Origin: Methanothrix sp.
GTDB lineage: Archaea > Halobacteriota > Methanosarcinia > Methanotrichales > Methanotrichaceae
Direction of reading: 5' to 3'
NCBI GenBank assembly: GCA_025361645.1
Contig: JANYKI010000110.1
Span: 1-33,996 of the forward strand
DNA: 33,996 nt
The notes beneath the pieces were generated by a model. It saw nothing but the letters and a program-made list of their open reading frames with translations, did not search any database and was not told the origin of the DNA. This document shows positions 1 through 33,520 of the stretch, piece by piece. The position numbers and the translations under genes are program-made. Numbering within the stretch: the stretch's first letter is position 1; each line of letters opens with the position of its first letter.

Positions 1-108
1 ACACCAAATAGACTGCATTTCTCATTTGGACATGCCACGTCCAAGAATCGCGGTTTTGGACCTCTCTTTCCCATTTGCTACACCCAATGTAGCATATGAT
101 GCGTAGAT

Positions 109-1481
109 CTATTTATAACAACCTATAGTCGGATCACGACCTGGATGTGCGACCAGATTAATTTGCCAAAGTCCGATAGAGTCCTCTTTAGGTAAATTGA
201 GGTTTTCTGCACAAGTGTATTTACTACTTTCAGCACATGCCACGGCATAAGCTACAACCCAAATATCCTCTCCACCATTTGTCGTCCCGCTTGGAAAATT
301 ACTCTTAACCAAGCTTGCCAGTTCAGATTTCGAGACGTATTTACATTGTGCAGTAATAGTGACTGTTAGGATATTTGACCATTCAGAGGTTTCACCTTTG
401 CTGTTGGTAGCCATCGCCTTGACCAGATAAGTCCCGGCTGCGCTCCAGATATGAGAAGCACTCGCAGATTTACCGGAGGCAACTAAACCAGTCGTTTTTT
501 GTGGTTTACCGTCTCCCCAATCAAAAGTGTACTTCACCCGGTTTCCGCTGGGATCGGTTGCTTTAGTGGAGAAAATGTAGGACTTTCCAGCTGTGCCTGA
601 AGTCGAACCTGACGGAATAGATGGTGTATTGGGTGGTGGTATAGGAGTTATGGACACAGCAAATGTGTTTGACCATGCTGAGGCGGCGCCGGCCGTGTTG
701 ATAGCCATTGCTTTGACTAGATAAGTGCCAGCTGCGCTCCAGCTATGAGATGCACTTGCAGCTGTATTGGATCTCACCAAGGCAGTCGTTGTTTGAGGTG
801 TATCGTCTCCCCAATCGAATATGTACTTCATCCTGTAATTATTAGGATCAATTGTCTTAGTTGAGTAAATGTAGGACTTTCCGGCTGTGCCTGAATCTAA
901 ACCGGACGGAACATAAGGCGTAGAGGGAGGGACATCATAAAGAGAAGAGATCTTCCCAGAAATTTTATTGTAATATGCATTTGGAGTCGTAGGATTTGGT
1001 AGATTTCTAACACCATATGCCCTTAGAACTTGATCTACAGCAGTTAGACAATTGTTGTTTGTAACATCATAGCCGCGATTTGGGAAATCTTGCAACCAAG
1101 ACCCAGCACTGATTGGACCGGAAGGATTAACAGGTATTGTTTTGATGCTGTTGTATCTCAGTAACATAAATTCGCGTTTTACTTCTTCAATATTGCTACA
1201 ATCTGCTGTCCATGCTCCATTATTTTCCCCTGCAGGGATATTTAGTGGATTAGGTGCTATTTTAGTGGATTAGGTGCTATATCATTGCCTTCAACTGCTC
1301 CGCAGAGATAATGACCATTCGAATTTAGGAATCCAACGCCGATATGCCCAAAACCAAATGCACTATCTGTTCGAATCGCAACAATAGCAGTTCCGGATAT
1401 TGCTTGCGCATTGCTTATGGTCAAAAGAACCATTAAAATCGATATTGAGCAGCTCATTATTAATAACATGCGTTGATTCAT
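109..1481 (-). pseudogene. Secreted papain-like / PKD / lysozyme-like protein, frameshifted
   Basis: This is one gene split into two reading frames. The first part (1257-1481) encodes a signal peptide starting MNQRMLL and ending near SNAQA, then a segment with GHIGVGF. The second part (109-1167 and the in-frame stretch before it) carries NNNCLTAVDQVL, two tandem PKD domains of about 95 residues (roughly 650-935 and 355-648; each has DWGD and SAAGTYLVKAMA), and a lysozyme-like segment with a Glu (CAESSKY) and GLWQIN. Removing one copy of the 20-bp duplication at 1241-1280 joins the two parts in one frame. The His-then-Cys order suggests a permuted papain-like or NlpC/P60-like fold; that is inference. 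The start at 1481 has GGAG upstream. The earlier ATG at 1523 abuts the TATA box and is unlikely to be transcribed. The lysozyme-like domain stops early at a TAG (109-111), close to the window edge. It could still be expressed by slippage or phase variation. Confidence 0.75.
1241..1280. repeat. Exact 20-bp tandem duplication causing a frameshift
   Basis: The unit tttagtggattaggtgctat occurs twice in direct succession (1241-1260 and 1261-1280) with no mismatch. Because 20 is not a multiple of 3, the second copy shifts the frame inside the secreted PKD gene and brings in a TAG just after NPLK. With a single copy the protein reads DIAPNPL then NIPAGENNGAWTADC in one frame into the downstream part. 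Confidence 0.95.
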
Positions 1482-7736: not shown

Positions 7737-7763
7737 AAAAGGGGTCTGATTGAGTACCCTTTT
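7737..7763 (+). promoter_or_regulatory. Hairpin just upstream of the ribosome site
   Basis: AAAAGGG (7737-7743) is the perfect complement of CCCTTTT (7757-7763), with a 13-nt loop. It ends 6 nt before the strong GGAGGT ribosome site (7770-7775) of the next gene, so it could modulate translation. No riboswitch class is recognised. Confidence 0.35.
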
Positions 7764-7782
7764 GAGAAAGGAGGTTCATGAA

Positions 7783-8190
7783 ATGAAGTTGATTCTTACA
7801 TTATTCGTCGTCACGGTTCTTCTGGCAAGCGTTGCCGTCACGGCCAGCGCTGCCGATGTTCTGGATTTGAGCACACTAGGTAAAAAACCGAGCATAGAGG
7901 CGGTTTCTCTGCCCAGGCTATCGCCCACAATGCCGACTATTGCGCCGACCTCTCTGGGAGGCAACCTGAAAAGCAATGTGCTCGATCTCAGCACTCTGGG
8001 AAAGAAAGCACTGCTCAATGTGAGCACGTCCATGATCAAGGGTCCCACTCCGGTTACAGTTACACCCATGTTCGCCATTAAGAATACCAATGTAACCAAC
8101 CAGGCCGGCTCTGTCATTACCCTGCCCCAGGCAATTTCTGCCAACCCCTCCGTCTACACCCCGCCCATTGCCATATTTGGCGGAGCTTAA
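7783..8190 (+). CDS. Small secreted protein with two VLDLSTLGKK repeats
   Basis: This 135-aa protein has a clear signal peptide (MKLILTLFVVTVLL to TASAAD) and then two copies of VLDLSTLGKK, one directly after the signal peptide and one about 40 residues later. The rest is rich in Pro, Thr, Ser and Val with no predicted enzyme motif. The ATG at 7783 is chosen because GGAGGT lies 7 nt before it; an in-frame TTG at 7750 would put 11 charged residues before the signal peptide. The secreted protein at 21995-22447 carries a related ILDLS motif, also near a Lys pair. The family is unknown; a surface or sheath-associated role is inference. Confidence 0.7.
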   Translation: MKLILTLFVVTVLLASVAVTASAADVLDLSTLGKKPSIEAVSLPRLSPTMPTIAPTSLGGNLKSNVLDLSTLGKKALLNVSTSMIKGPTPVTVTPMFAIKNTNVTNQAGSVITLPQAISANPSVYTPPIAIFGGA

Positions 8191-21994: not shown

Positions 21995-22447
21995 CTAACT
22001 GCACCCTCCGCATCCGCCTCCTCCGCCTGCCGTCGAGGTTGTGCTGCCCCTCGACCCGGAGATGGGATACATGATGTTCGTGTATCCGGCCAGGTTCTTG
22101 TTTGTCCTATCTTTGGAATAACCGGATAGATCAAGAATCTTTTTTCCGGAAGACTGGGAAGTGCCGGCGCAGGGCACCACAATTGATGGGCTGACCAGAG
22201 AAGAATTATCCATTGAGGTACCATTAATCGAGCTGTTATTCAATGAAGAGTTGTTTGTTGGTACCTGAATGGCCTGAGAGCCGCCCAGGGCCTGTACGGC
22301 TTTTCCGCTGGAGGCAGAAGAAGCCGCCAGATTGAGATCCCCCATATACACCATTCCTCCGCCCGGTGACCACTGGGCTGAGGCATTAAAGGCCAGGGCA
22401 ATGAACATGACACCCAGAGCCAAGGCCGCATATTTTGCAGATAACAT
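21995..22447 (-). CDS. Small secreted protein with ILDLS motif and Gly/Cys tail
   Basis: The 150-aa protein has a signal peptide (MLSAKYAALALGVMFIALAF to NASAQ), then a Ser/Asn-rich region with at least four N-glycosylation sequons (NSS, NSS, NGT, NSS). A segment GKKILDLSGYSKDRTNKNLA follows, and then a striking tail of glycines with two cysteines (GGGGGCGGCS). The ILDLS motif with nearby Lys-Lys resembles the VLDLSTLGKK repeats in the secreted protein at 7783-8190. The tail could anchor or cross-link the protein at the surface; this is inference. A TATA box (22468-22479) sits about 25 nt before the ATG, implying a nearly leaderless mRNA. It lies directly downstream of the CODH/ACS operon terminator. 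Confidence 0.7.
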   Translation of the reverse strand: MLSAKYAALALGVMFIALAFNASAQWSPGGGMVYMGDLNLAASSASSGKAVQALGGSQAIQVPTNNSSLNNSSINGTSMDNSSLVSPSIVVPCAGTSQSSGKKILDLSGYSKDRTNKNLAGYTNIMYPISGSRGSTTSTAGGGGGCGGCS

Positions 22448-26356: not shown

Positions 26357-26530
26357 CTACTTAGCGAGTACTACCTTGTCTATGCTGATCTTGGCATCCT
26401 TGAGTATCAGCTTAATGCCGCCGGTGCTGCCGGACATGGAAAAAGCTGGTGCTGCTGCCCCTGCTGCTGCAGCCGGTGCGGCTGCTGGAGCCGCGGCGGC
26501 CGGTGTCTTTGGCTTGAGTTTTAACTGCAT
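26357..26530 (-). CDS. 57-aa Ala/Pro-hinged protein in the CODH/ACS operon, copy 1
   Basis: The gene encodes 57 residues, MQLKLKPKTP, then an Ala/Pro hinge of about 20 residues ending GAAAPAFSM, a short SGST turn, and the tail GGIKLILKDAKISIDKVVL then AK. A strong ribosome site (GAGGGTGA) lies 7 nt before the ATG. It starts 43 nt after the cdhC stop and is 81 nt upstream of its paralogue. The tail alternates hydrophobic and polar residues as a two-strand beta hairpin would. The two copies share the ends but differ in the hinge sequence, which suggests selection on design. From memory, Methanosarcina CdhC ends in an Ala/Pro/Met-rich extension; these may be a detached counterpart, which is unverified. 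Confidence 0.8.
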   Translation of the reverse strand: MQLKLKPKTPAAAAPAAAPAAAAGAAAPAFSMSGSTGGIKLILKDAKISIDKVVLAK

Positions 26531-32343: not shown

Positions 32344-32573
32344 ATTGCGAGAGATTTCCCTGCCACTCCCTGGAACAGGACTGCACCCTCTGCTTTTGCC
32401 CCTTTTATCCCTGCCGGGACAAAAGAACAGGCGGTAAAGAGCAGGGCGGAAGCTGGTGCTGCGACTCCTGTCAAATCATCCACCGCCCCGAGGTGGCTGC
32501 AACAGTCCTGGACGCACTCATGAAGGGCGAGGCTGTGGACGCGGTCTGGAAGAAGCTGGAGGCGCATCTGTGA
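32331..32573 (+). CDS. Small Cys-rich protein of cobamide clusters
   Basis: The 80-aa protein has nine cysteines in a compact N-terminal domain (C6, C11, C18, C21, C23, C28, C43, C44, C47). It resembles the cysteine-rich small domain (PF04071-like) that accompanies or is fused to cobamide-synthesis enzymes, probably as a metal-binding module. A short helix (RPEVAATVLDALMKGEAVDA) ends it. The gene overlaps cobD at its start by 13 nt and cbiB at its end by 4 nt, so translation of all three is coupled. Its exact function is unknown. Confidence 0.75.
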   Translation: MQRLNCERFPCHSLEQDCTLCFCPFYPCRDKRTGGKEQGGSWCCDSCQIIHRPEVAATVLDALMKGEAVDAVWKKLEAHL

Positions 32574-33520
32574 TAGAAAGCCTGGCCGTATTTCTCCTGG
32601 CTGCGGCCTTTGACATCCTCTTAGGCGAGCCGCCCGCAAGAGTTCATCCCGTGGTCTGGATTGGGAAATTGATCGCCTTCCTGCGCACCAGGGCCAGGCC
32701 CAACCGGGCGAGCGGAATTGCTCTGGCCCTAGTAGTAATAGTAGTAACCGTTCTTTCCGGCCACCTGGCTGTGAAAGCGGCAGGATTTGTTCCACTATTG
32801 CCATTGCTCATCTCCGCCTACCTATTCAAGTCCACCTTCGCGATTCGTTGTCTTCTGCAGGTCTCCCGGGACATCGGGCAGATGATCGACAGGGACATGG
32901 ACGAGGCCAAGTCGATGCTGCCTGCCCTGGTGGGCCGCGATACCAGCTCGCTCACCAAAAGTCAGGCCAGCTCGGCGGTGATAGAGTCGCTCTCCGAGAA
33001 CTATGTGGACTCCATCCTCTCGCCCATATTTTACTATCTGGCTCTAGCGCCCCTGGGCTATGGCCTGGAAGCCGCGTTGGCATTCAAGGCCATCAGCACC
33101 ATGGACTCCATGATCGGCTACAAGACCCGAGGTCTCAAGGAGATTGGCTTCGCGGGGGCGAAGCTCGATGATCTGGCCAACTACATTCCCGCCCGCCTAT
33201 CCATTATTCTTATCGCCCTGGCCCGGCCCGCCAGGGGAGGCGCGGCTCTTCGGGCTGCTTTCCGCTATCATCGCGCCACCCCCAGCCCCAACTCCGGCTG
33301 GCCCATGGCGGCTCTAGCCGGCGCTCTCAATATCCGCCTGGAGAAACCCGGCTACTATGTACTGGTGGAGGAAGGAATGCAGCCACAGACCTCGGATGTG
33401 CCGCGCGCCCTGCATCTTATGCAGACGGCAATCGCACTTACCTTAGCCGTGGCATTATTGGTACTGTTCTCCTGGACCATAGGATCATGGACCATCGTCT
33501 CATGGCCTATTAAATTGTAA
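32570..33520 (+). CDS. cbiB: Adenosylcobinamide-phosphate synthase
   Basis: CbiB is the membrane enzyme that attaches aminopropanol phosphate to adenosylcobyric acid. The 316-aa protein has several membrane spans and family motifs: DILLGEPPARVHPVVWIGKL, LVGRDTSSLTKSQASSAVIE, SLSENYVDSILSPIFYYLA and MDSMIGYKTRGLKEIGFAGAK. The start is GTG 32570, overlapping the stop of the Cys-rich gene (GTGA), with GGAGG 8 nt upstream; the longer frame adds 38 unrelated residues. With the cobD-like gene it covers consecutive steps of one pathway, beside the operon of a corrinoid-dependent complex. Confidence 0.93.
   Translation: MIESLAVFLLAAAFDILLGEPPARVHPVVWIGKLIAFLRTRARPNRASGIALALVVIVVTVLSGHLAVKAAGFVPLLPLLISAYLFKSTFAIRCLLQVSRDIGQMIDRDMDEAKSMLPALVGRDTSSLTKSQASSAVIESLSENYVDSILSPIFYYLALAPLGYGLEAALAFKAISTMDSMIGYKTRGLKEIGFAGAKLDDLANYIPARLSIILIALARPARGGAALRAAFRYHRATPSPNSGWPMAALAGALNIRLEKPGYYVLVEEGMQPQTSDVPRALHLMQTAIALTLAVALLVLFSWTIGSWTIVSWPIKL

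Follow-up and report, generated by a model that had tools for sequence, protein, structure and literature searches.

A gene for a secreted protein at the start of the stretch of DNA analysed here is likely an accessory pseudogene, truncated by an IS and broken by a real, probably recent, frameshifting tandem duplication. That stretch, referred to as the window herein, is the whole of contig C6 (33,996 bp) from a Methanothrix sp. genome of 2.43 Mb in 141 contigs, with a completeness of 97.25% and a contamination of 0.85%. The window carries CO dehydrogenase/acetyl-CoA synthase (CODH/ACS) genes (Pfam CdhD and Prismane/CODH matches), and the host was therefore taken to be a methanogenic archaeon. 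The GC content at positions 142-1481 is 0.433, versus 0.521 for the whole window. Coordinates of the features are collected in Table 1.

Table 1. Features of the interrupted gene and the adjoining element in the window.
Feature	Position	Strand	Description
N-terminal fragment	1257..1481	-	ATG at 1481, 74 aa, TAG at 1257-1259; hydrophobic signal-like and 'GHIGVGF' stretches
C-terminal open frame	109..1269	-	386 codons plus stop TAG at 109-111; two PKD domains, partial SLT_3
20-bp unit, first copy	1241..1260	.	Contains the TAG (1257-1259) that closes the N-terminal frame
20-bp unit, second identical copy	1261..1280	.	Contains 1270-1272, the last stop upstream of the C-terminal frame
IS1-type element end	1..141	-	Terminal 141 bp of a 1173-bp element, identical to C112:29050-29190; terminal sequence GGTCGTGAT...

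An earlier, sequence-only reading of this DNA had described two identical, adjacent 20-bp copies at 1241-1280. This description was borne out by Tandem Repeats Finder, which gave a period of 20, 2.0 copies and a 100% match, and the identity of the copies fits the recent event that had been proposed. The array is exactly 40 bp long and the flanking bases on neither side extend the repeat, which suggests that the duplication formed without a visible pre-existing short repeat across it. The 20-mer is present twice in the entire MAG, both times inside the array, and is absent from the genome_contigs collection. A single match in the viral_contigs collection (L068) was rejected as a chance word, as the surrounding sequence is unrelated and a tblastn search with both gene pieces returned nothing there. 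We also weighed the possibility that the repeat originated from excision of an IS leaving a 20-bp target duplication; target duplications of this length are unusual, and the sequence gives nothing bearing on this route.

The array is the sole exact tandem duplication with a unit of at least 12 bp in the window (periods up to 400), and ten mononucleotide shuffles of the window yielded none with units of 12-120 bp. As a yardstick, we used a further 45,708 bases from this genome, which hold no exact duplication with a unit of at least 12 bp, and 116,060 bases in 15 loci of other genomes of the genus, which hold one, of 24 bp. Such duplications are uncommon, yet not unique to the window. The 24-bp duplication lies near the same locus in another genome of the genus (L055:1488-1535). 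Within the window, imperfect GCT-rich tandem repeats of 15 and 18 bp adjoin the CODH/ACS genes (26445-26500), and 2.5 copies of a 15-bp unit at 33468-33505, close to the 3' end of an ORF (32456-33520), repeat residues such as SWTI.

On the minus strand, GGAG lies upstream of the ATG that opens the N-terminal fragment, and a signal peptide in this 74-codon piece was judged by eye. The first usable start of the C-terminal frame is the ATG at 1167, and its nearest upstream stop is at 1270-1272. Since the inner stops of both frames fall within the array and the phase offset between them is 2, equal to 20 mod 3, the arrangement is as expected from a 20-bp duplication within one gene. As in a pseudogene, one coding frame is interrupted and its parts now lie in two frames. 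From 112 to 1269 the frame stays open over 386 codons, and no further change that breaks it was seen; the decay may therefore be recent, or the gene only partly out of use. The sequence-only reading had held that removing one copy restores a continuous frame through signal peptide, papain-like, PKD and lysozyme-like parts. This stands in so far as the duplication explains the phase shift and the PKD and SLT_3 domains were matched, while the papain-like part was left unconfirmed and the lysozyme-like part proved incomplete.

Pfam domains are confined to the downstream frame, where two PKD stretches (E = 4e-16) and an SLT_3 lysozyme-like domain (E = 1.5e-7; window 127-261, minus strand) were found; the upstream piece had no match in Pfam. 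With the N- and C-terminal pieces queried separately, Pfam, NCBIfam, PHROG and PDB lent the papain-like label no support at usable E-values. A GHxG stretch upstream of the array and an NNC stretch downstream of it were noted by eye, and this order is presumably that of permuted NlpC/P60-like enzymes, which we take as a lead only. A single-sequence fold of the C-terminal piece had a mean pLDDT of 35.2, too poor for use. SLT_3 occurs in one of the 392 genomes of the phylum, namely the window's own, which suggests that this methanogen acquired the lysozyme-like domain laterally.

The window contig begins inside an IS1-type element, a feature absent from the earlier reading. Window positions 1-141 are identical to the final 141 bases of contig C112, on which the element is complete, with a length of 1173 bp and two ORFs that overlap. 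Its IS1 transposase domain lies in ORF2 (DDE_Tnp_IS1, PF03400; 42.9 bits versus a cut-off of 24.1) and covers profile positions 84-125 of 131. The ends of the element form the imperfect terminal inverted repeats GGTCGTGAATCTCTAATAGG and GGTCGTGATCCGACTATAGG; an automated repeat search reported no pair of at least 12 bp. The gene reads into the element, such that codons 377-386, the last 10 of the downstream piece, and the stop belong to the element, and the match to SLT_3 ends at profile position 58 of 89, three residues beyond the element boundary (position 60 in a second search). As the stop and final codons derive from the element and SLT_3 is incomplete, the gene is truncated as well as frameshifted. 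It appears to have been cut at window position 141 by the IS end, as judged from one contig end, and a search of the same genome for the rest of SLT_3 did not find it.

Contig C80 ends with 140 bases from the opposite end of the element. When the left flanks on C112 and C80 were compared with the right flank at window position 142, no target-site duplication was matched, which suggests that the other side of the insertion is missing from the assembly or rearranged; a strain mixture or a rearrangement is possible. The complete copy on C112 (L015:1-1515) interrupts a long ORF resembling a PAS-domain sensor (domain assigned by eye), which ends at the element boundary.

Searches for relatives of the gene returned the window's own genome only. 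DNA and protein searches for one-copy relatives covered 26 genomes of the genus, 50 of the order and 392 of the phylum with this result, and the N-terminal half of the gene (the 109-aa part downstream of the array) had no relative in the 25 other genus genomes, 49 other order genomes or 391 other phylum genomes. The 74-aa piece likewise had none among the other genus genomes, and the downstream piece matched no phage or plasmid record. In the viral_contigs and genome_contigs collections, 5 and 44 stretches, respectively, fitted the search pattern, and none was a relative.

We also compared the neighbourhood with 15 arginine decarboxylase loci from 15 of the 25 other genus genomes. Using tblastn with both pieces, the best hit had E = 0.026, with some loci extending little on the side of interest. 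L049, the closest relative as judged by arginine decarboxylase (99%), has no copy of the gene at the corresponding site, where 465 bp separate arginine decarboxylase from a deaminase/acetyltransferase-like gene (names by eye). The genes that follow arginine decarboxylase in this relative sit on contig C23 in the window's genome, and by this synteny C23 is likely the neighbour of the window contig; it starts within a different multi-PKD gene (domains by eye). In another relative (L050), the same place is taken by a TnpB-like ORF together with an exported-looking ORF that is unrelated, both read by eye. The site is an accessory region with surface-type genes and an IS. Farther along the window, two small exported-looking ORFs, at 7750-8190 (+) and 21995-22447 (-), have an LDLS stretch in common; the former had no match in Pfam, and the latter terminates in GGGGGCGGCS.

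These data are best explained by a pseudogene that took two hits. A single replication or repair error would have produced the duplication, recently enough for neither copy to have gained a base change. The exact 20-bp duplication shifts the frame such that translation ends at the TAG within the array after 74 codons. The IS end supplies a foreign tail and stop and leaves SLT_3 incomplete, and its insertion would be a separate hit. Once the gene was out of use, there may have been no selection against either the duplication or the insertion.

It is unlikely, although of the alternatives this is the one to which we give most weight, that the two-copy form is absent from the genome or belongs to a minor strain variant. 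The assembly comprises 141 contigs, two contig ends overlap by exactly 141 bases, and the array is 1.1 kb away from a contig end that falls in a repeat; an exact overlap between contig ends is what a de Bruijn assembler would leave. However, the junction GCTAT-TTTAG is absent from the one-copy sequence, and the repeat and its flanks have no base in common. Judging from how assemblers behave, k-mers of at least 21 across this junction must derive from reads, and an assembly error would accordingly be an unlikely source of the second copy.

The sequence-only reading had also raised the idea of a reversible switch, by which slippage from one copy to the other would alternate the gene between on and off states; we consider this very improbable. 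The protein is of surface type, and slippage could in principle remove one of two identical 20-bp copies that lie side by side. Moreover, bacteria are known to switch surface genes through strand slippage, as described in PMC11868660. Here, however, there are just two units, the unit is long and the flanks show no microhomology, and a one-copy allele was found in none of the collections searched. The IS also appears to have cut the gene at its 3' end, at window position 141, in which case reversal by slippage could not yield a whole lysozyme-like part. Phase-variable SSR loci are recognised by many short units and by one state that gives a complete protein, whereas this gene has two 20-bp units and a 3' end made of IS sequence.

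Taken more broadly, we would give even less credence to conditional expression of the duplicated allele, whether through reversal of the copy number or through -1 slippage at AAA-TAG, which would provide a secreted archaeal protein whose lysozyme-like domain is shortened and which is switched from cell to cell. Slippage on its own, with ribosomes moving back one base on the AAA before TAG (1257-1262) to enter the downstream frame and make a longer protein with seven extra residues, is scarcely credible: the -1 frame after the AAA at 1260-1262 coincides exactly with the downstream open frame, re-pairing of Lys-tRNA on AAAA is conceivable and the stop codon follows immediately, but there are four A only and no recognised slippery heptamer, the resulting protein would again terminate in IS sequence, and no homologue was found that could show conservation.

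The locus thus looks like an ordinary broken gene rather than a genetic switch, and it serves as a warning. Within a surface gene, an exact repeat this striking suggests phase variation, while the contig edge shows truncation by a mobile element. The analysis further documents that a methanogen genome contains a lysozyme-like SLT_3 domain, which was found in none of the other genomes among the 392 searched in the phylum and is apparently being lost.

Among known systems, the element resembles the IS1 family in its DDE_Tnp_IS1 match in ORF2, its two overlapping ORFs and its similar ends, and differs in its length of 1173 bp and in that a target-site duplication was not found. With the SSR phase-variable contingency loci described in PMC11868660, the gene shares a tandem repeat inside a surface-protein reading frame. 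Those loci have a long tract of short units, in contrast to the two 20-bp units here, for which no allele variation was seen and where the 3' end has been lost. A further comparison is with pseudogenes made by short frameshifting tandem duplications, with which the gene shares exact adjacent copies, a unit that is not a multiple of three and a premature stop, and from which it differs in being additionally cut by the end of an IS.
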